A DNA stretch of 35,509 nucleotides from a virus, in IMG/VR virus record IMGVR_UViG_3300033998_000041, positions 1 to 35,509 of that record; one strand, given 5' to 3'. Positions 2,091 through 35,122 of this stretch are shown here, piece after piece (positions within the stretch are counted from its first letter, which is position 1; the number at the start of each line of letters is the position of its first letter). Made by a program: the position numbers and the translations under genes. The notes under the pieces were generated by a model. That model was not told where the DNA came from and did not search any database. It worked only from the letters and a program-made list of their open reading frames with translations.

Positions 2091-2470
2091 AACTCTTTCA
2101 TTTTTTCGATTGTCGTTAATACTTCACGCTCACGTTCTCCTAATTCGTAGTACTTCTCGACGTCTTCGATCGTAAGCGTTCCGTTCATGATCCTCTTTTT
2201 GATCTTCAGAAACTTGTCGTCGTCGATCATAAGCTGTTGCTTTTTTATTGTCATTTCATTGTCGTAATTTTCAGCGCTCTTTTCTACATACGATCCTGCG
2301 TTGTAATCAGGAAACAGTGCGTCGAACGCTTCGTTGATTTCGAGTTGTGCCGACTTGAAGCAGTCGGCTACATCGTCGCCTTCGTTGATTTCGTAGGTAA
2401 CTGACATTTTTGCAAATTCATAATTTCCAAGAGACCTTGAAATGTGTAACATGATTTCTTTTGCTTTCAT
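2087..2470 (-). CDS. Hypothetical protein in recombination module
   Basis: A 127-aa acidic protein. It starts 4 nt inside the exonuclease gene's end (ATGA overlap), so the two are probably co-translated. The N-terminal half (SLGNYEFAKMSVTYEINEGD, then a helix with CFKSAQLEINEAFD) looks like a small alpha/beta domain; the C-terminal half is helical and charged (TIEDVEKYYELGEREREVL). It sits where phages often place an annealing protein or exonuclease partner, but it has no RecT or Red-beta signature I can see. Product unknown. Confidence 0.68.
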   Translation of the reverse strand: MKAKEIMLHISRSLGNYEFAKMSVTYEINEGDDVADCFKSAQLEINEAFDALFPDYNAGSYVEKSAENYDNEMTIKKQQLMIDDDKFLKIKKRIMNGTLTIEDVEKYYELGEREREVLTTIEKMKEL

Positions 2471-3381
2471 TTCAATGTAATTTTAAGATACGGTTTTACA
2501 ACTGATGTTTTCAAGTAATCGCTTTCGTTGATTTCTGGATGTTCTTTCAGCAATTTCGCTTTGTCAAACGTCGATCGAATGCTTTCAGGCACTACCGTCA
2601 ACGTATATCCGTCGCTTTTAAGCGACTTAACGCCGTTCTTCAACATCAGATCAAGCATGATAGCTTTTTGCTTTTCTACCTCTTCCTCCATTTTTTTTAT
2701 TTGTGAAAGATAGTTGAACATCACCTCAGCCGCTGCCTGCTCGTGTGGCATCAAATCGAACGTTGTCCATTCGTCTTTTTCCTGATAGATAAACGTGTCG
2801 CAAAAGTCGTCGATCAGGCTTATGCCATTTCGTAAGATTTCAATAAACTTGTCGTCGCGTACTATGAATAGATCATAATAGCCTTTATACTCATCAGCAT
2901 CGAATTTAGCGCCTTGATCACCTTTTGTAAGAAAAACTATTTTTGCTCCTAACATGTAGTACCATTGAAGTTGCGCTATGTAATCTTTAATAGTTGTATC
3001 TACATCAGTTGATGTGTATTTCGCTTCAACTACAGTATTTCTGTCTTTGTCGTAAAAATCTGCGTGCGCAAAAATTTTGAAGTTTCGAGGCTTGATAAAA
3101 TTACTTTCTAACTTGTAGTTACTCTCCCATCCATTTTCTTCACTGTATTTTGATCTTAGCCACATCTCGAATTCATTCCCAGCCTCCATCGCTTCAGTCG
3201 CAGGTATTTCGATGTACTCTGCCTGTCCGAGCGCGACTGCTATCCTTCGCTTATCCGTGTCAGACAAAGCCGACAAGCCTTTCAGTCCTACCTTGTAAAA
3301 CATCTTCGCGTCCGATCCTCCGAACCCGCCTTTACGGGTTTCGACGATCTCTCTCTTTTGTTCTGTTTGATTGTTGTTCAT
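2467..3381 (-). CDS. YqaJ-like / PD-(D/E)XK recombination exonuclease
   Basis: A 304-aa protein with the PD-(D/E)XK order of lambda-exonuclease/YqaJ nucleases: E70/E72 in AGNEFEMWLRS, D108 in FAHADFYD, E119-A-K121 in VVEAKYTST, and Q137/Q139 in AQLQWYYML. The C-terminal part (helical from about 215) ends with a basic FDKAKLLKEHPEI segment also typical of these proteins. These enzymes resect double-stranded DNA ends for phage recombination. It is the first gene after its own promoter and after a duplicated intergenic element. No RecT partner is visible. Confidence 0.8.
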   Translation of the reverse strand: MNNNQTEQKREIVETRKGGFGGSDAKMFYKVGLKGLSALSDTDKRRIAVALGQAEYIEIPATEAMEAGNEFEMWLRSKYSEENGWESNYKLESNFIKPRNFKIFAHADFYDKDRNTVVEAKYTSTDVDTTIKDYIAQLQWYYMLGAKIVFLTKGDQGAKFDADEYKGYYDLFIVRDDKFIEILRNGISLIDDFCDTFIYQEKDEWTTFDLMPHEQAAAEVMFNYLSQIKKMEEEVEKQKAIMLDLMLKNGVKSLKSDGYTLTVVPESIRSTFDKAKLLKEHPEINESDYLKTSVVKPYLKITLK

Positions 3382-3426: not shown

Positions 3427-3458
3427 CAAATCTAATAGATTATTTTCTATTTCGCAAA
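3427..3458 (-). promoter_or_regulatory. Bacteroides-type promoter for the exonuclease operon
   Basis: On the minus strand: TTTG, 20 nt, TAGATTTG, an exact fit to the Bacteroides -33/-7 consensus (TTTG, 19-21 nt, TAnnTTTG). Transcription would start near 3420, about 40 nt before the exonuclease ATG. The -33 box lies inside a GCAAA-N4-TTTGC palindrome. Confidence 0.75.
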
Positions 3459-3467
3459 CTTTTTTGC
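3454..3467. promoter_or_regulatory. GCAAA-N4-TTTGC palindrome over the -33 box
   Basis: GCAAA CTTT TTTGC, with the left arm forming the -33 element of the minus-strand promoter. The same symmetric element sits at the same place over the promoters at 7062 and (one mismatch) 30880. A shared operator for an early/middle gene regulator is a plausible reading. Confidence 0.5.
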
Positions 3468-3486
3468 AATTATTTTTCAGTAGTAC

Positions 3487-3725
3487 AAAAAATAAATTTC
3501 AGAAAAATCGATTTATCGCCTCAAACGCGCTCCTGGATTATGTTTCATAGAAAAATAATAAAATAAGCATTTAATTTGAAAACTATATATAGTATTATTT
3601 TTATTATTTATATCTCTATATAAAGTAATTTATTTTTTATTTTTTACTCATTATTACTTGAAACATAACAACTTAACTCGATAAATTTTTATGGTAAATT
3701 TTTTGTCACTACTTTTATTTTTTAC
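3487..3725. repeat. Intergenic repeat element, copy A
   Basis: Fills most of the gap between the 122-aa gene and the exonuclease gene. It is a diverged direct copy of about 29041-29300. The best-conserved blocks are TTATCGCCTCAAA, GCTCCTG, AAATAAGCA, AAACTATATATAG and a 39-base stretch (3615-3653) identical to 29179-29217. Inner arms ACTATATATAG (from 3582) and CTATATAAAGT pair as an AT-only hairpin; outer arms TTATGTTTCA (3538-3547) and TGAAACATAA (3659-3668) are exact inverted repeats. It lies upstream of the promoter, so it acts as DNA (origin, enhancer) rather than as a leader. No gene seen here. Confidence 0.8.
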
Positions 3726-4090
3726 CTGAAATTACTCGGTTTCTGCATGGTTTCGACCGTTTTTTCGAGTTTGCTTTTCATAAGATCGATCTTTTTCTGA
3801 AGCTCTTCGATTTCCATCCTGACACGATCCTCATCCGATAACCCGATAAGATTGAAAATTTCTTTCTTGTCTTCTCGCGTCATCGTCAACGTAACAGCGT
3901 TCTCATGATCGAATGATCCATTACTCTCAAGAAATTCCCATCCGTTCGCGATCCAAAACGAGAACGGTAGCCCTTCGACCTCAATTGTAACCACATGTTT
4001 TTCTGTTTTCATTACCTTGAAATCACTCGCTTTAATCTTCCGTATGACTTCAGCATTTAGTTCGTCATACATTTGTTTGATTGTTTTCAT
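3722..4090 (-). CDS. Hypothetical protein with C-terminal coiled coil
   Basis: A 122-aa protein beginning MKTIKQMYDEL. Residues 20-60 look like a beta-rich domain (KHVVTIEVEGLPFSFWI); residues 75-115 are a heptad-like charged helix (MEIEELQKKIDLMKSKLEKTVETM), suggesting oligomerisation. Last gene before the repeat element and the exonuclease promoter. Starts with the genome's AACAATGAAAAC signature. Family not recognised. Confidence 0.68.
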   Translation of the reverse strand: MKTIKQMYDELNAEVIRKIKASDFKVMKTEKHVVTIEVEGLPFSFWIANGWEFLESNGSFDHENAVTLTMTREDKKEIFNLIGLSDEDRVRMEIEELQKKIDLMKSKLEKTVETMQKPSNFR

Positions 4091-5281: not shown

Positions 5282-5671
5282 TCATTCTTCTGATTCCACT
5301 TCGTCGCTCTCGAACCACTCCTTAAAAGCATCTTTCGCTCTCATAATCATTTCTTCAACCGCTTTTTTGCAAGCAGGTGTCAACGGAAAGTTAAACAATC
5401 CTGTTACGTAACCGTGTCCTTCGGCTACCTCACAAAGATAGTCGTCGCTTGTCAACTTAAATCCGAAAGGATCTTTGTTAGGGTTAAACCTTTCGCACAG
5501 GAAAGAGAATTTTTTTCCGTCGTCGTCCGTTGTTTTCAGAAACATCGCCGGCGTTCCTTTCGTTGTTTCTCTTATAACAAACTCGCTTCTGTTCATTATT
5601 TCCTTGAACCATCCGAGTGTTCCAAGCATGTGTCCTTTGTTTTCAATTCTGATTTCAATACTTGTTTTCAT
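5282..5671 (-). CDS. Hypothetical early protein (129 aa)
   Basis: Begins MKTSIEIRIENKGH. The middle has aromatic, acidic stretches (TTDDDGKKFSFLCERFNP, FKLTSDDYLCEV) and the C-terminus is a helix (ACKKAVEEMIMRAKDAFKEWF) ending in DEVESEE. The 68-bp repeat copy 1 forms its leader and first codons. A strong terminator follows directly. Overall acidic, soluble, unknown function. Confidence 0.65.
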   Translation of the reverse strand: MKTSIEIRIENKGHMLGTLGWFKEIMNRSEFVIRETTKGTPAMFLKTTDDDGKKFSFLCERFNPNKDPFGFKLTSDDYLCEVAEGHGYVTGLFNFPLTPACKKAVEEMIMRAKDAFKEWFESDEVESEE

Positions 5672-5731
5672 AACTTTATATTTTAATAAATTTTTTGCCT
5701 ACTCTTTTTGAGGATTTTCGGCAGCCTCCTT
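5664..5731. repeat. 68-bp direct repeat, copy 1 (gene leader)
   Basis: Matches 5975-6042 at 65 of 68 positions. On the minus strand it reads from AAGGAGGCTGCCG through a GCC...GGC pairing to the start ATGAAAAC of the 129-aa gene. The two copies flank the 80-aa gene, which therefore looks like a duplicated or inserted cassette sharing a leader. Confidence 0.92.
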
Positions 5732-5739
5732 GTTAAATT

Positions 5740-5982
5740 TTAAAAACCTCTGTCAATTTCTTCAAATTTAAGAGCTAAATCATACCAATATTTAACGCCT
5801 TCTTTAGTATTGCACCAATTAAACGCCTCAGAAATACATATAAATCCACTTTCATAATTTATATTTGAAATAACATCTTTATAATTCTTGTATTTTTTTA
5901 TATTTTTCATAAATGAATTATAAGCATTATTTTCAATCAAAAAATTTTGTAAAAGTGGTTTCAATTCTTTTTTAGTTTTCAT
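5740..5982 (-). CDS. Hypothetical small lysine/asparagine-rich protein (80 aa)
   Basis: Mostly helical and basic at the N-terminus (MKTKKELKPLLQNF, FMKNIKKYKNYKD), with aromatic residues toward the end (FNWCNTKEGVKYWYDLALKF). Lower GC than its neighbours. It is bracketed by the two 68-bp repeats, so it may be a mobile single-gene cassette or the product of a local duplication whose coding parts diverged. Function unknown. Confidence 0.62.
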   Translation of the reverse strand: MKTKKELKPLLQNFLIENNAYNSFMKNIKKYKNYKDVISNINYESGFICISEAFNWCNTKEGVKYWYDLALKFEEIDRGF

Positions 5983-6042
5983 AACTTTATATTTTAATAA
6001 ATTTTTTGCCTACTCTTTTAAAGGATTTTCGGCAACCTCCTT
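5975..6042. repeat. 68-bp direct repeat, copy 2 (gene leader)
   Basis: Second copy, three substitutions from 5664-5731. On the minus strand it carries AAGGAGG, a TTGCC...GGCAA pairing, TTATTAAAATATAAAGTT and the first bases of the 80-aa gene. Sequence identity reaches through the start codon, so the leader itself may be the functional unit (translation or RNA stability). Confidence 0.92.
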
Positions 6043-7034: not shown

Positions 7035-7066
7035 CAAATTTACAACTTTACTTCTTAACATGCAAA
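7035..7066 (-). promoter_or_regulatory. Bacteroides-type promoter for early operon
   Basis: Minus strand: TTTG (7063-7066), 20 nt, TAAATTTG (7035-7042), matching the Bacteroides consensus exactly. It faces the run of small early genes. A second TAnnTTTG-like box exists inside the -33 palindrome but has no matching -33. Confidence 0.78.
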
Positions 7067-7076
7067 TTTATTTGCA
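7061..7076. promoter_or_regulatory. Perfect palindrome over early promoter -33 box
   Basis: TGCAAAT-TT-ATTTGCA, with two 7-base arms and a 2-base centre, contains the -33 TTTG of the early promoter. Its core GCAAA-N4-TTTGC recurs at 3454-3467 and, with one change, at 30880-30893. Likely a protein-binding operator. Confidence 0.58.
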
Positions 7077-7148
7077 CTTTTAACATAGATTTAACACGTA
7101 TTTAACATAATCTTAACATTAAGCACGTTTTTGTGCGTAAATAATAAC

Positions 7149-16136: not shown

Positions 16137-18530
16137 TTATAATCGTCTTTTTCGTTGATCTGCCATATCCAGCACGCCAACAAGCTCATTCGTCCCGATC
16201 TTGAATTCAACCGTGTAATTCTCCTGATACGGCCCGCGAAACTCGGTCGGTGCGTAGCTCGGTGTTGCTTGTTGATAGGACGACGTTCCGCCAGAATAGC
16301 TTCGATCATAGCCGCCTCCGCTTGTTGCGTTGTTAACCATCTTACTCGCCGCCGCAGAAGCTGCAGCCCCGAGAGCTACTAACGCTGCACCAGCTGCTAT
16401 TGCCAACCACGGTTGAGTTATCAGTGTCGTCTTCAAATGTAATGCAGCCGTACCCATACCGATCAATAACGATCCGAATTGTTGTGCCAATTTTCCCATC
16501 GCGTCGATCAATCCTTTCCCTAAATCTTGAAAGTTACCTGATCCAAGCGCTTCACCTATTGAACCAGCTATATTTGTTATTCCTGACTGCATAATGTTAC
16601 CGTAATCGATAATAACCTCATTTGCTTTCGCCAAACTTGTCTGAAGCAAGCTGCTGTCAATCGCCGGCAGCGTCCAATTCTTGCCATCAAAGAATTTATT
16701 CATGTCGGCCGCTATCGTAGGCATTTCGGCATTCACTTTTAAATTAAGCTCTCGACCGCCTGTCAACAAATTCAAAGCTTCTGAAAGATCGTTGATTTGT
16801 TGCTGCGTCGTTTTAATCTCATCGCGAACATTTGTCGATAAAATAATCCCTGTTTGCAGTTTTATCAGTTTGCTTTGAAGCTCATCAATCGTATAAGATG
16901 TTTTTCTTATCGAATCCTGCAACGACAAATTCGTGCCTATCAACTTCGTGAACGTGTCGCTTACGGCAGTCGTTGCCGATACGACTTTTTCCGACGCCGT
17001 ACTAACCGCCGTTACTTCTCTATCTGATACTTCCTCGATAACGGTAGCCGCTTCGGTAGCCGCATCTTTTTGCTTCGTGAAAGCGTTCGCCATCCTGTCA
17101 GCGAAACCGTTTACCGATTCCGCCCACTTATCAAGTCCTACGACGTCGAGAAACTTTCCAAGCACGTTAGCCATACTTGAAATAGTATTCGTTACGATCC
17201 TGCCTATTGACGCAAATGTGTTGCTGAATTGCGATAACAACGCATTCAACGCTCCTTTAAAGTCGCCGTTTATTATCGCACGCAGAAAGTCAGCAACGTT
17301 CTTAACCGTGTTCATGAAAAAGTCAAGCACGCTTTTGATACTGTCAAACGTGTTATTCCAAATCGACGTTAACGTACTTCCTATTTGATCCCAAACCGCT
17401 ACTGCAACATCACGTATCGAATTGAACGTGTTTTTTATGTTTTCGAAAAGATCAACCGCCAATGCTTTCACTGACGAGAACATCTCGCTACCTCCGCCTG
17501 TCGTGAAGTACTCTTTTATCGCGTCCCAATTCTTTACGATCAACGCTGCAGCTCCAACAATCGACGCTACAGCAATGCCAATCGGCCCTGTCATCGCAGT
17601 GAACGCAGTTCCGATCAACGGTGCTAATTTAAGCAAGCTTCCAAGACCAAGCATCAACGGGCCGAGCGCAGCCACAACGCCTCCGATAACGACGATAGTC
17701 TTCTGCAATTCAGGTGATAACGATCCGATCTTGTTAACCATGTCGGCAATTCCTGAAACAATAGGCGTTATAACAGGCAATAGTATCTCTCCGAACGACG
17801 TCGCCAAATTCTTAACCTCAACCTGAAGCGCACGCATCGATCCGCTTGCCCCTTCAGCTTCACGTGCTGCCTGTCCTTGCGCAGCTGCCGATTGTTCCCA
17901 GATCAACGATAACGTAGCTGCCTGCCTTGCTGACAAAGTCATTTCCTCGCCTTGCGCTATAAGTCCTAATTCAAGCGCACGTGTCTTTACCAGCGCGTCG
18001 TTTACGGCCATTCCGTAGTTATCCAGCATCGTGTTGTTACCCTTCAACGCTCCTGTCAACGCTCTCACGGCATCCTGCACGCGACCGCCGTACATAGCCG
18101 TCAAGTCTCCAGCAAGCTCAATAAGCTTCTGTGATTGTTTCGCGGCTTGTTCTTCAGTCAACTGACCTATGTTTACAAGCATCGATCCCATAAGGTTCGA
18201 GTAGCTTAACGCCTCGCTTTTCGCGATACCGTATTGAGACGACAAGTTTTGTGCCCATTCCTTCACCGTGTCGCTCGATTGCTTGTAAACCTGATCCGTT
18301 GCTCCGAGCGCGTCCTGAAAATCGGCGGCCATCTTAAACGAAGCACCTCCAGCGGCTACGATCGCGGCCGACAATACTGAAGCTTTTCTGCCTATGTCAG
18401 TGAATTTGTCTCCGATCGACGAAAGCCGTTGACCAACCGTCTTCTCAAGTCCATCGATCTTCGCTTGTGCCTGATCGATCGCTTTTTCAAAGCCTTTAGC
18501 ATCAGCCGTTATTATCGCTGTGAAACTCAT
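16137..18530 (-). CDS. Tape measure protein
   Basis: A 797-aa protein. N-terminal coiled coil (residues 10-50), then the typical tape-measure block ASFKMAADFQDALGATDQVY, helical repeats, hydrophobic segments near 250-345 (VVIGGVVAALGPLMLGLGSL, GIAVASIVGAAALIV) and 735-765, and a G/S/Y-rich C-terminus. It follows the frameshifted chaperone pair with an ATGA overlap, the standard order in siphoviruses. By the usual 1.5 angstrom per residue rule the tail would be about 120 nm. Sets tail length and helps DNA entry. Confidence 0.93.
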   Translation of the reverse strand: MSFTAIITADAKGFEKAIDQAQAKIDGLEKTVGQRLSSIGDKFTDIGRKASVLSAAIVAAGGASFKMAADFQDALGATDQVYKQSSDTVKEWAQNLSSQYGIAKSEALSYSNLMGSMLVNIGQLTEEQAAKQSQKLIELAGDLTAMYGGRVQDAVRALTGALKGNNTMLDNYGMAVNDALVKTRALELGLIAQGEEMTLSARQAATLSLIWEQSAAAQGQAAREAEGASGSMRALQVEVKNLATSFGEILLPVITPIVSGIADMVNKIGSLSPELQKTIVVIGGVVAALGPLMLGLGSLLKLAPLIGTAFTAMTGPIGIAVASIVGAAALIVKNWDAIKEYFTTGGGSEMFSSVKALAVDLFENIKNTFNSIRDVAVAVWDQIGSTLTSIWNNTFDSIKSVLDFFMNTVKNVADFLRAIINGDFKGALNALLSQFSNTFASIGRIVTNTISSMANVLGKFLDVVGLDKWAESVNGFADRMANAFTKQKDAATEAATVIEEVSDREVTAVSTASEKVVSATTAVSDTFTKLIGTNLSLQDSIRKTSYTIDELQSKLIKLQTGIILSTNVRDEIKTTQQQINDLSEALNLLTGGRELNLKVNAEMPTIAADMNKFFDGKNWTLPAIDSSLLQTSLAKANEVIIDYGNIMQSGITNIAGSIGEALGSGNFQDLGKGLIDAMGKLAQQFGSLLIGMGTAALHLKTTLITQPWLAIAAGAALVALGAAASAAASKMVNNATSGGGYDRSYSGGTSSYQQATPSYAPTEFRGPYQENYTVEFKIGTNELVGVLDMADQRKRRL

Positions 18531-26908: not shown

Positions 26909-27279
26909 TTGTCGTCGTCTTTTGACTTGTCTATGAAATTAACCGTAAATCCTTTGTCGTTCGTGTTCATCTCTATATATTGCTGATTTAGCATCCTTCG
27001 CTCATCAGGTGTACATATCAATCGATACAACGCCAATAACTCGCCTGCCTTGTCCGATTTAAATAACTTCGATCTGATAGCCGACTTCGTGCGTATCTTG
27101 TTCTCATTCAACAATCTCTTAAAGTATTCCGATTCTTCCGAGCCTTCAGGAAATAACTCATAGAATGTCGATGTGCTGCACGGAAGCCAAGCAATTATAT
27201 CGTTAACGAAAAACAAATTGTTTCGCTTTATCGCTTCTTCAGCCATCTTTACCAATTCCTGTTTATCGTATAGTGCCAT
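26905..27279 (-). CDS. terS: Small terminase subunit (probable)
   Basis: A 124-aa protein from MALYDKQELVKMAEEAIKRN; a DNA-binding-like helical part (NDIIAWLPCSTSTFYELFPEGSEE) then ENKIRTKSAIRSKLFKSD and LYRLICTPDERRMLN, a pattern of small terminases in Bacteroides phages. An ATG 7 codons upstream (27300) is also possible; I prefer 27279 for its AAAAAATTATGGC context. Either start lies inside the glycosyltransferase gene's end. It recognises the packaging site, probably a pac or cos sequence nearby. Confidence 0.75.
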   Translation of the reverse strand: MALYDKQELVKMAEEAIKRNNLFFVNDIIAWLPCSTSTFYELFPEGSEESEYFKRLLNENKIRTKSAIRSKLFKSDKAGELLALYRLICTPDERRMLNQQYIEMNTNDKGFTVNFIDKSKDDDK

Positions 27280-28198
27280 AATTTTTTCGTTTTGGTTCAT
27301 TTGTAAATGGATAATCTTCAGGATACGTATCCCATGCTATGTTATCTTTTCCAACTCCTTTTAATATCATCGGATACAAATATCGTCGCTGTATGTGATG
27401 ATGTAACCTGCCTCCGTTTTTAACCTGTTTTTCTGCATAAATAGCACTCGGAAACTGTATCGGTGTAACAAGTGCCTTATTCAACAATTTGCATTCATTG
27501 TATAAATCAGTCAATCCTCCTTTTGCAGTTGCCGACATCGTTTGCTTGAGGACTAATCCATCTCCGTAGCTTCCTGTAAATAATCCTTCGTTCATTATTC
27601 CTACAAATTGACTTGTGTCATCATCCTGTACTCCTCGTTCTCCTCGATAGATATATTTTGTCAAAATAAACGTAGTATTCATTACTTTATTTCGAAGCAA
27701 TTTATTATCTACTCCTCCGATAAAATCCCCTGTTTGACTTATTCCGAAACAACCGATATGTCTCTTATACATCAATTCACAAACACTTTCAAAAATAGTT
27801 GTGATATCGTCAATATTAGCTGAACGAATAGTTTTTCCTTTATATTTCACTTGATAACTTTCAGTATCGTCGTCCTGTACCATGTAAAATTCTATTCCTT
27901 TCTCTTTTGCGTAATCGTAAAACATATTTCGTGCCTGTCCAGCTGAACGTCTCGAAATACTTGCTCTATGCACATAATCATATCTTTGCCTTGCTTCATT
28001 CATATCAAAAACGAAAAGATTAAATCCAATTTCTTGTGCCAATGCTTCGTATTCTGATTTATCTTCTGCTTCATCATCGATAAACACATGTATATTTTTT
28101 ACGTTCCAGCCAATTTTAACGAAATATTTCACAGTCTTCAAATTCTTAGCTCTGTGATACGACGGAATAAATATGTCAATCATTTCAGTTTTCATCAT
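27263..28198 (-). CDS. TAGT-type glycosyltransferase (GT-A fold)
   Basis: A 311-aa protein. MIDIFIPSYHRAKNLKTVKYF starts a GT-A fold, with RRSAGQARNMFYDYA near 83-96 and an active-site VQDDDT at 107-112; a second VQDDDT lies at 190-195. This combination is found in the TET-associated glycosyltransferases described by Iyer and Aravind, which modify hydroxymethylated bases in phage DNA. Here no TET oxygenase and no thymidylate/hydroxymethylase gene is present, so the substrate is open. It sits between the ParB-like gene and the terminase, overlapping both. Confidence 0.72.
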   Translation of the reverse strand: MMKTEMIDIFIPSYHRAKNLKTVKYFVKIGWNVKNIHVFIDDEAEDKSEYEALAQEIGFNLFVFDMNEARQRYDYVHRASISRRSAGQARNMFYDYAKEKGIEFYMVQDDDTESYQVKYKGKTIRSANIDDITTIFESVCELMYKRHIGCFGISQTGDFIGGVDNKLLRNKVMNTTFILTKYIYRGERGVQDDDTSQFVGIMNEGLFTGSYGDGLVLKQTMSATAKGGLTDLYNECKLLNKALVTPIQFPSAIYAEKQVKNGGRLHHHIQRRYLYPMILKGVGKDNIAWDTYPEDYPFTNEPKRKNYGTIR

Positions 28199-28916
28199 CT
28201 TCTATTTTCCATCCTTCCAATTTGCTATTTGCTCTTAAAATATCATCTTCGAGAAATCCTTGTAATCCTTCATCGCAAAGCACTAACCGCAGTCGCTCAA
28301 TAACTCGCTTTTCTTTTTCGTCAGCATTGAAATAGTAGTAATTTGCAACATTTTCGAAATCAATCTTTAGAAATCGATATGCAAACATTTTCAATACTTC
28401 TTTCTTTTCATCGCTTAAATCTGATTCTTCGATAACTTTTATCTTAGCATCGAATTTTTCAGTGTCAATGCAATCGATTAATTTTATATTAGGCTTTTCT
28501 GTAGGTTCATAATAAATACTTTCAAACTTCAATTCGCTTAATATTTCTGTTTCCGATTTATTTTCAATAGGTACTCCCCACGATTCAAGATCAACGTTCC
28601 ATTCACCGAGTAACTCGTAATCCCATTCGCTTCCCCAATGCGCGTTGTCTTTTACGATAAATTCCTTCTTTTGTTCTTCAGTCAATCCTTCAACTTTTTC
28701 GATCCACGCATCTGGTATTTCTTTGTATCCGAGTTTCTTCAGTGCGAAGTACCGTTTATTCCCTCCGAGAATATTGTTATCTTCGTCGATAACGATCCGA
28801 CGAATTTCCATCATGCGTTCAAATTCCTGTATCGATTTTGCAATCTTCTTTATTTGCTCATCTCCGACAGATTTGAACGGGTTCTTTTCAAGCGGTTTTA
28901 ATTCCGATACTTTCAT
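28185..28916 (-). CDS. ParB/sulfiredoxin-like domain protein
   Basis: A 243-aa protein; the first about 90 residues follow the ParB N-terminal pattern: LKPLEKNPFKSVGDEQIKKI, then IVIDEDNNILGGNKRYFALKKLGYKEIP. The GGNKR segment is the ParB/Spo0J nucleotide-handling loop. The remaining 150 residues are charged and helical without a helix-turn-helix that I can see. No ParA gene is present, so plasmid partition is unlikely. Such proteins often neighbour phage DNA methylases, glycosyltransferases and terminases. First gene of the late operon. Confidence 0.78.
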   Translation of the reverse strand: MKVSELKPLEKNPFKSVGDEQIKKIAKSIQEFERMMEIRRIVIDEDNNILGGNKRYFALKKLGYKEIPDAWIEKVEGLTEEQKKEFIVKDNAHWGSEWDYELLGEWNVDLESWGVPIENKSETEILSELKFESIYYEPTEKPNIKLIDCIDTEKFDAKIKVIEESDLSDEKKEVLKMFAYRFLKIDFENVANYYYFNADEKEKRVIERLRLVLCDEGLQGFLEDDILRANSKLEGWKIEDDEN

Positions 28917-28945: not shown

Positions 28946-29040
28946 GTGTAATTTTTCATACGTTGTTCTCAAAAACCGAAATATTTTTCAAAATTCTATG
29001 AAATTCATCAAAAATTCGATTGCAAACAAGCCAAAATGCA

Positions 29041-29300
29041 GAAAATAAATTTACATTTTTTTGCTTATCGCCTCAAAGCAGCTCCTGTATTACGTTTCAG
29101 CGAAAAATATAAAATAAGCAGTTGTTTTAAAAACTATATATAGAATACTATACTACTCTTATAATTATTATTTAATATTCTATATAAAGTAATTTATTTT
29201 TTATTTTTTACTCATTAATCACTGAAACTCAAATAATTGCTCGAATAAAATTTTCGGTAAAAATTCGGAGCAAAATTTTACTTTTTTATTTTTCAACTCA
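29041..29300. repeat. Intergenic repeat element, copy B
   Basis: Diverged copy of 3487-3725, again about 80-100 bp upstream of a promoter. ACTATATATAGAATA (from 29132) and TATTCTATATAAAGT (to 29190) pair at 14 of 15 positions, a stronger hairpin than in copy A. GTTTCAG (29094-29100) and CTGAAAC (29222-29228) form an outer inverted repeat. TGAAACATAA appears again at 29311-29320. The 39-base block 29179-29217 is identical in copy A. The rest of the 614-bp gap is described in the neighbouring entries. Confidence 0.8.
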
Positions 29301-29326
29301 CTTAATAACCTGAAACATAACTAATT

Positions 29327-29379
29327 AAAGAAAAAATAGGAGCGGCGAGCAAAAATCAAAAAAATTTGCACACCGCTCC
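29327..29379 (-). terminator. Probable terminator of the middle operon
   Basis: GGAGCGG (29339-29345) and CCGCTCC (29373-29379) form a GC-rich 7-bp stem; an inner GCAAA/TTTGC stem can form inside it. On the minus strand it is followed by TATTTTTTCTTT. The 27-nt distance between arms makes it atypical. It lies about 150 nt after the last middle gene. Confidence 0.6.
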
Positions 29380-29965: not shown

Positions 29966-30508
29966 TTATTTCGATTTAGTAAATACATTATCCTTCTCTT
30001 TCAACCACAGATCGTCGCTGTCATAAAACAGTCCGAAGTCGTAATCTGCGTTTATTTGTCCGTACATGTCAGCCATCGCAGTATCTTTGAAATCGATAAC
30101 ATACGAAATTCTGCCTTTTCGCTTATTACTGTCAAACGAATATCTGAATTCTGATGTTACGTCGTAAAACACTTCTTCGTTCGTTACGTTATCGTGTTTT
30201 GCCTCATCGTAATAAGTCGTTTCTTTAACTCGCTTCATCCTGATTGATCCGCTGTTATTGTCGATGAAAATCAATTCGGTAGTCGATGTTTCGGTGTCCG
30301 TGTACGGTATCGTGTACCAATTTCCTTTGTCGTCGTACTTCTTAAACCAGCCTCGCGAGCTGTATCGATCGACCTGCTCCCATTTCGTGCCTACTAATTC
30401 GTTATGAAGTTCTGACTTTTCACATGATATTAACGTGATTAGTGTAAGTAATGTAAAAATACACAACCGAGATCCGAATAATTGTGATCCGAATAATTTT
30501 GTTTTCAT
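29966..30508 (-). CDS. Phage-encoded lipoprotein
   Basis: A 180-aa protein with a signal peptide and lipobox: hydrophobic segment IFTLLTLITLISC with the cysteine at about residue 29. The preceding stretch holds a short repeat (LFGSQLFGSRL), from two copies of ATTATTCGGATC in the DNA. The mature part is beta-rich, like lipocalin-type domains (LVGTKWEQVDRYS, YSFDSNKRKGRISYVIDF). A surface lipoprotein made early could block receptors against superinfection. Role inferred. ATGA overlap with previous gene. Confidence 0.7.
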   Translation of the reverse strand: MKTKLFGSQLFGSRLCIFTLLTLITLISCEKSELHNELVGTKWEQVDRYSSRGWFKKYDDKGNWYTIPYTDTETSTTELIFIDNNSGSIRMKRVKETTYYDEAKHDNVTNEEVFYDVTSEFRYSFDSNKRKGRISYVIDFKDTAMADMYGQINADYDFGLFYDSDDLWLKEKDNVFTKSK

Positions 30509-30837
30509 TTTGTATTTGTTTTTGTTTTATTGTTGTTAATAATTTTCATAGCATCGTTATAACCTTTGTTATAACCTCTCTCCAGCAATTCGATAATAGT
30601 TTCATCTCCAAATCCGTCGTTTTTCCAATCGTAATCGATAGTTTCATTTTTAATCCATTCGTCTTTTTCTTTTGATGTTACTGTTTTAGCAGATTGCTCT
30701 TTTCTTAAGCCCTTTAGCTCGCACAATACCATGTCGATCGCCATTCCTATTTTTGTCGGCGACTGCATCTCGATGTCAGCTCCTTTTCTCCACATGTTGT
30801 GAAGTTCGAGCACCGTTATTGCTTCATCTATTGTCAT
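30505..30837 (-). CDS. Hypothetical protein with MTIDEAI-type start (110 aa)
   Basis: Begins MTIDEAITVLELHNMWRKGADIEMQSPTKI, a sequence type I know from short hypothetical proteins of Bacteroides phages and conjugative elements. The C-terminal half is charged (EKDEWIKNETIDYDW, LLERGYNKGYNDAMKI). First gene after the promoter at 30852, with a leader of only about 8-10 nt. Function unknown. Confidence 0.68.
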   Translation of the reverse strand: MTIDEAITVLELHNMWRKGADIEMQSPTKIGMAIDMVLCELKGLRKEQSAKTVTSKEKDEWIKNETIDYDWKNDGFGDETIIELLERGYNKGYNDAMKIINNNKTKTNTK

Positions 30838-33721: not shown

Positions 33722-35122
33722 TTAAAACGGTAAATCATTCATCGAATTGTCTTTCTCATCGTCATCCTCATCGAAAGCATCGCCTTTCTTAAGCTCAAGT
33801 ATCGCATTGATCAAGTCTTTTCGCTTGTATTTAGACCGTCGCGTTTCGGGAGGCTTGCCGACAAGTTTGTCAAGCGCTCCGACAACAGCCTTCTTCTCTT
33901 TAAGCGTCGGCTTGCCTTCGATCGCCGCCTTTATGATAACAGGGGGAGTGATATAAGTCCCTTCAGCGCTGTTAATAACTTGCAATATCATCGGATCATC
34001 ACGGAATCGGTTGATGTGATAGTTTATTTCCTCGCTTGCCAAGCCATTCACGTGATCGATCGTGTTATACCACGCCTGCCAATCGTCCATTCGAGGTGTC
34101 GCATTCACGCAGAACTCTTTCCAAATTTTGTATATTTCATCGAAAGACAACTGTACAGGTTGATTGTTCAAGTGAATAGCATAGAACCGCCTTTCTGTTT
34201 TGTCCTGCACGAAATCGGCAATGTCTTCATTCGACGTGCAGAAATAGAAACGTTTTGCCGAGATAGTCCGAACGTCTTTGAATTTCTGATTGTACTGACA
34301 CGAATTACTTGTCAACATCTGCTTTATCTGTCCGTAAGCTTTCGACGTGTCCTTCGGCATACTTTCGTCAAGTATTACAGCGTTGCATGAAGCTGCAAGC
34401 GGAATGTCATGTTCGTTGTACTGCATTTCTTTTGCCAACGTGCTTTCATATTTACCTGCATTGTCCATGTTTTCCTCTCCGTTGAGGACCGACACGATCG
34501 CCCTTGCTATTGTCGTCTTACCTGTTTGCTTTTCTTCAGCCCACAAATAGATCGATTTGTTCATCGACGGGTTGTGACCTTCGTGCCGTGTCTGACAAAC
34601 GAAATACCTCAACGCATCTATGTCGTTATCGCTGAAGCCCCACACGCTCTTAACTTTCTTTACTGCTTCATTGAAACGTGTCTCATCAGGCTTTTCCGCA
34701 AACATCTTATCGGTTCGTTCTTTCAGGTGCATCTGTGCCAGCGCTCCGTACCACGCAGCGTTGGCTATCCTTTGAGCTTCGTTGTCAACGCCTCCGTCTT
34801 TGCAATTCACTCGATTACAGTAAACCGAGAAATTACGTATCGCCGGGAACGTGTCCTTTTTCTTACCTGTAAGGATAGAGCTGTTTATCGCCTTTCGCAT
34901 GATACGCGAAATATCTTCAGCCAAATCATCAACGCTTGTGTGCTTCTGCAACCTTGCCCACTTCTCCAACCCGCCTGCATGCACAACGTCAATTATCAGG
35001 TTATCTGGGACCGCCGTCGTGTCGCCTACCTCTCGCATGAACACGTCTTCCCATGTCTCACCTTCGAAGCGTTCCCAATCCATTATTTCACCAAGCTTCT
35101 CGAAATCTATGTTCTTTTTCAT
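33722..35122 (-). CDS. VapE/VirE-type replicative helicase-like ATPase
   Basis: A 466-aa protein. P-loop WAEEKQTGKTTIARAIV at about 194-210, Walker B AVILDES at about 248-254, sensor FCTSNE and arginine finger DKTERRF near 295-312, in the order of the VapE (virulence-associated E) family of phage/plasmid superfamily 3-like ATPases. The N-terminal 190 residues have no primase motif. The C-terminus is highly acidic and ends MNDLPF, like the SSB-like protein here. Works probably with the separate primase gene on the other side of the contig junction. Confidence 0.88.
   Translation of the reverse strand: MKKNIDFEKLGEIMDWERFEGETWEDVFMREVGDTTAVPDNLIIDVVHAGGLEKWARLQKHTSVDDLAEDISRIMRKAINSSILTGKKKDTFPAIRNFSVYCNRVNCKDGGVDNEAQRIANAAWYGALAQMHLKERTDKMFAEKPDETRFNEAVKKVKSVWGFSDNDIDALRYFVCQTRHEGHNPSMNKSIYLWAEEKQTGKTTIARAIVSVLNGEENMDNAGKYESTLAKEMQYNEHDIPLAASCNAVILDESMPKDTSKAYGQIKQMLTSNSCQYNQKFKDVRTISAKRFYFCTSNEDIADFVQDKTERRFYAIHLNNQPVQLSFDEIYKIWKEFCVNATPRMDDWQAWYNTIDHVNGLASEEINYHINRFRDDPMILQVINSAEGTYITPPVIIKAAIEGKPTLKEKKAVVGALDKLVGKPPETRRSKYKRKDLINAILELKKGDAFDEDDDEKDNSMNDLPF

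Follow-up and report, generated by a model that had tools for sequence, protein, structure and literature searches.

The window analyzed here, that is, the whole 35,509-base stretch of a virus record, contains a very A/T-rich element of about 200 to 270 bases in two copies, one ahead of each main gene block. The question is what this duplicated DNA does. According to the initial annotation, the copies could be paired replication origins, enhancers shared for regulated transcription, or a control element that had been duplicated. We found that a duplicated, conserved cis-acting element does stand upstream of the operon promoters and that the evidence leans toward transcription control, while paired origins were neither proved nor rejected. 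Judged from its sequence and setting, the element is most likely a transcriptional switch region that both gene blocks share, and the copies possibly also serve as paired replication starts.

The last 127 bases of the window repeat the first 127. Two contigs of relatives from one sample, L007 and L018, share an exact 127-base overlap, and since the same overlap joins these contigs, we took the repeat at the window end to be the assembler overlap of a circular assembly and not a true terminal repeat. In both operons, every gene is on the minus strand. Along that strand, the early operon extends from 3381 past the window ends to 29531 and the late operon from 28916 to 3722, with the labels early (recombination/replication) and late (structural) inferred from gene content. 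The first early gene encodes a YqaJ/RecE-like exonuclease (2467-3381, minus strand). The early operon also encodes an SSB-like protein with a DDLPF tail, an SNF2-type helicase, a methyltransferase, a VRR nuclease, a DUF5906/VapE-like ATPase with weak matches to VapE-like domain families, and a DUF6371/zinc-ribbon protein, which was labeled primase-like because of a 30.6% match to a gut-phage gene annotated as DNA primase/helicase. The protein encoded at 1254-1829 matched no family and has an acidic tail followed by a terminal DDLPF, like single-strand DNA-binding proteins. The first late gene encodes a ParB N-terminal-domain protein (28185-28916, minus strand) without a match to the ParB DNA-binding domain, and the late operon further contains genes for a glycosyltransferase, the large terminase, the portal, and structural proteins. 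The promoter type points to a Bacteroidota host, and so does the fact that the terminase and portal have relatives in phages of Flavobacterium and Cellulophaga.

The glycosyltransferase gene, which is of the TAGT type (27263-28198), adjoins the gene of the ParB N-terminal-domain protein, and the L042 relative of the latter protein is fused to sequence reading like a DNA methyltransferase; the fusion and the neighboring gene hint at DNA modification. Elsewhere in the window, two large open frames have 173 bases in common (16137-16309), and within this overlap, at 16143-16149, the alignments with L012, L014, and L018 are interrupted, the relatives having about 40 to 60 extra bases. Rfam family RF02914 (DUF805b RNA) matched twice on the minus strand, at 5696-5731 and 6007-6042, well above the gathering score. 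Both matches sit in a 68-base repeat that is 95.6% identical (5664-5731 and 5975-6042), and each adjoins a 22-base run of A/T only. Single-sequence structure prediction for 33722-35122 failed, with a pLDDT of 36.

Copy 1 of the element (3467-3731, minus strand, oriented like the early operon) was delimited by alignment with copy 2 and with L007, L008, and L009, and it extends into the final codons of the gene at 3722-4090. Copy 2 (29039-29316, minus strand), delimited by alignment with copy 1, lies upstream of the late operon. Local alignment of the two copies, at about 3486-3731 and 29039-29316, gave a score of 101, compared with a mean of 18.2 (standard deviation, 2.4; maximum, 28) for 300 pairs of dinucleotide-preserving shuffles, and Blast aligned them at 80% over 203 bases with an E value of 2e-31. 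The two copies are where they had been reported. The 39-base identical block that had been described consists of 37 identical bases, or 39 when the flanks are counted, and the identical run reads TCTATATAAAGTAATTTATTTTTTATTTTTTACTCATTA on the plus strand. In the operon direction, comparison of the copies placed the invariant A/T block ATGAGTAAAAAATAAAAAATAAATTACTTTATATAGA at 3615-3651 in copy 1 and at 29179-29215 in copy 2 (both minus strand), the block being one T short in L005. The outer GTTTCA/TGAAAC inverted repeats were likewise found in both copies, and with their interior they span 3542-3664 in copy 1, where they form the perfect 10-base pair TTATGTTTCA/TGAAACATAA, and 29094-29228 in copy 2. 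Upstream, the homology goes beyond what was first claimed and extends as far as a TTTCAGGT block (3724-3731 in copy 1, 29308-29315 in copy 2); upstream of copy 2, a third GTTTCA(GGT) site occupies 29308-29316 (minus strand), with TTTCAGGT as its copy 1 counterpart. A motif scan located CAGGAGCnnnTTTGAGGCRATAA at 3513-3535 in copy 1 and at 29065-29087 in copy 2 (both minus strand). When up to 3 mismatches were allowed, this 23-base motif had 2 matches in the genome, with 0 expected.

Read in the operon direction, both copies consist of TTTCAGGT, a TTTACC block, GTTTCA, ATGAGTAAAAAATAAAAAATAAATTACTTTATATAGA, a variable loop, CTATATATAGTTTT, TGCTTATTTTA, TGAAAC, CAGGAGCnnnTTTGAGGCGATAA, and AAATTTATTTTYTG, followed by the promoter. 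From GTTTCA onward, the spacing of the blocks is equal within 1 base, except for the central loop (13 extra bases in copy 2) and for the distance to the promoter. In the distal part of the element, the block spacing differs between the copies.

Each copy stands close upstream of a promoter, as had been proposed, and has the same orientation relative to it. Consensus boxes of the form TTG-N-TAnnTTTG define Bacteroidota-type promoters for the early operon (TTG-N20-TAGATTTG, 3457-3427, minus strand) and the late operon (TTG-N24-TATATTTG, 28972-28938, minus strand), the -7 consensus TAnnTTTG being documented in Flavobacterium (PMC9723704). Both early-promoter boxes and their spacing are kept in L007 and L008 despite a differing spacer. 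The -7 box follows the last shared block at a distance of 52 bases in copy 1 and 94 bases in copy 2. On the coding strand, three intergenic promoters matched the full consensus, and two of these come directly after the copies. The third lies at 7065-7035 (minus strand) with three TTTAACA repeats, at 11-base spacing, just upstream, and the TTTAACA array near 7035-7118 appears operator-like. Just before copy 2, inverted-repeat structure and conservation revealed a GC-rich hairpin followed by a T run (29339-29379, minus strand), which is likely the terminator of the early operon; a simple terminator scan did not list it because its loop is longer than allowed.

Close relatives of the window virus were gathered by pattern scans and protein searches. 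Copy 1 is present in L007, L008, and L009, and copy 2 is present in L004, L005, L006, L010/L018, L011, and L012/L027, at the same two places and nowhere else. Each relative fragment carries one of the sites, and none of the contigs carries both; L007 (copy 1) and L018 (copy 2) probably form one genome, since they come from the same sample and join exactly over 127 bases. The search of relatives that the initial annotation had suggested thus found fragments of the genus with a copy at each site, and not relatives with only one copy.

The copy 1 core (3467-3654) had no change at any of its 188 positions in L007 or in L008, compared with changes at 91 of 413 fourfold sites in L007 and 61 of 324 in L008, although resolution inside the element is limited because the relatives are close (about 90 to 97% identity). 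The promoter stretch (3427-3466) had 6 changes in 40 bases in L007, and the stretch just upstream of the core had 7 changes in 67 bases in L007 and 8 in 67 in L008. For copy 2, L018 had 13 changes in the 350 bases at 28975-29324, versus 245 changes at 965 fourfold sites. The proximal segments, from the element to the promoter, are unlike between the two copies, yet each is conserved among the relatives. Distant relatives of the portal, exonuclease, and ParB-like proteins (L021-L042) showed no similarity to the element beyond the A/T background. Close relatives apart, the motif CAGGAGCnnnTTTGAGGC had only chance matches in viral contigs, and no match to the element was found in genome contigs, plasmids, or named phages, the genomes having been searched with one motif.

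We consider that the two copies may form a shared upstream cis-acting control module for the two promoters, a reading to which we assign a probability of about 50%. Transcription control was favored because the two promoters are next to the copies, because element and promoter stay together upstream in L007, in which an extra gene lies between the promoter and the exonuclease gene, and because a terminator-like hairpin precedes copy 2. The control module is also supported by conservation that is unbroken from the copy 1 core to near the -33 box. Repeated promoters that end in TAnnTTTG-like boxes, in phages 11b and Fpv5 and in the viral contigs G009 and G012, indicate that duplicated control DNA is usual in Bacteroidota phages. 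In such a module, a protein or complex, probably phage coded, would bind the GTTTCA/TGAAAC sites and the 23-base motif and would fold or loop the A-tract-rich DNA between the sites. The looping could tune host RNA polymerase at the downstream TAnnTTTG promoter, and the conserved proximal segment of each promoter may give the early and late operons their separate timing. The distances to the -7 box differ by 42 bases, or four helical turns, as looping would need, in what is one comparison only. A-tract phasing in the element was not above that of shuffles. Several observations argue against the control module. The shared part stops short of the core promoter, which the repeats of 11b and Fpv5 do include; phage operators are usually shorter than a segment of nearly 200 bases; the two operons, one early and one late, should be regulated differently; a regulator match was seen only at 30505-30837 and was marginal; and the promoter at 7065-7035 lacks the element.

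The main rival, which we regard as possible but distinctly less probable, is that replication starts at both copies as paired origins, which on the circle are separated by about 10 kb. An initiator would bind the GC-containing motif and the inverted repeats, and the A/T stretch would melt. Of all stretches of the genome, the two copies are the least stable, whether 60, 100, or 150 bases are considered, and the operon adjoining copy 1 contains the exonuclease, SSB-like, primase-like, VapE-like ATPase, and VRR nuclease genes. A precedent is phage SPP1, whose two similar AT-rich origins, oriL and oriR, about 13 kb apart, share one binding protein, so that both phages have two similar AT-rich elements about 10 to 13 kb apart on the circularized genome, as well as exonuclease and SSB genes (PMC6316719). 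The SPP1 origins, however, contain defined direct repeats bound by gp38, with oriL inside gene 38, and no such repeats were seen in the element. One direct repeat (33 bases, 76%) was found in copy 1 and not in copy 2, and no clear initiator repeats (iterons) were seen in either. The cumulative GC skew that had been proposed as a check showed no switch at either copy, in raw sequence or at fourfold sites, and was one-sided everywhere; this pattern speaks only against a classical bidirectional origin, since a unidirectional origin, as reported for SPP1, gives no switch. Low stability and duplication are not specific to origins, since the repeated promoters of Fpv5, G009, and G012 also fall on the least stable DNA, and conservation of the element continues into the promoter.

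In phage P4, two separated cis-acting sites, ori1 and crr, are needed by one primase-helicase initiator, and these sites carry short iterons. Such iterons were not seen in the element, and the VapE-like domain matches of the window protein are weak. We know of no origin described in the phage group of the window virus. It is also conceivable, if rather unlikely, that one element does both jobs, the copies being paired origins whose melting would be coupled to the adjoining early and late promoters. If so, replication would switch the late operon on.

An RNA element acting in the leader or trailer, for example a put-like antiterminator, is improbable. Both copies are oriented like the operons, and pairing of the A/T arms can give copy 2 a long hairpin, but both copies lie upstream of the predicted transcription starts, and no Rfam family matched at either. 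RNA folding was no better than that of shuffles for copy 1 (z of -0.04) and moderately better for copy 2 (z of -2.1), and single-strand DNA folding gave z values of -2.1 and -1.6. The folding signal of the copies is moderate and carries no decisive weight. The AT-only hairpin with partly covarying arms that had been described was only partly upheld: its GAATA/TATTC extension is paired in copy 2 but broken in copy 1. The palindrome CTATATATAG and the complementary TATATAG of the other arm are invariant, and copy 2 of L005 has lost most pairs outside the TATATAG core. A covarying hairpin was rejected as the main feature because pairs beyond CTATATATAG fail in L005 and in copy 1. A structured leader RNA was likewise not supported, as folding beyond shuffles with compensatory changes was not observed.

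That the copies are a partition (parS-like) site, or another segregation or recombination site, is very improbable. The ParB N-terminal-domain gene follows copy 2, and GTTTCA/TGAAAC resembles half of the canonical parS site. However, the half sites are more than 100 bases apart, the ParB-like protein has the N-terminal domain only and has a relative fused to DNA methyltransferase-like sequence, and the best full-parS match in the window, with 3 mismatches, lies elsewhere and is at chance level. A parS site as such was rejected, the 16-base palindrome TGTTTCACGTGAAACA or a close variant being absent from the copies. A miniature mobile element (MITE) inserted twice, to which the short terminal inverted repeats TTATGTTTCA/TGAAACATAA of copy 1 would be suited, was dismissed, in agreement with the earlier argument from conservation outside the inverted repeats, as the homology passes the repeats on both sides with no target-site duplication seen, the relatives hold their copies at the same two places and nowhere else, and there was no match in plasmids or named phages or, for the one motif tested, in genomes.

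Among Flavobacterium phages, 11b and Fpv5 have A/T-rich intergenic repeats that, like the element, recur within the genome upstream of genes in the same orientation and, in Fpv5, coincide with the least stable DNA. These repeats are about 50 to 80 bases long and contain a TAnnTTTG-like box, whereas the window element is 200 to 270 bases long and lies upstream of the promoter, and no sequence similarity was found between them. Phages 11b and Fpv5 and the viral contigs G009 and G012 have families of repeated intergenic promoters with common A/T-rich upstream parts. The literature searched contained nothing direct on the mapping of early and late operons or on paired origins in Bacteroidota phages, and little on gene timing or replication start in these phages. 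The element provides a defined, conserved, and compact target, with two natural copies, two promoters, and a unique 23-base motif.
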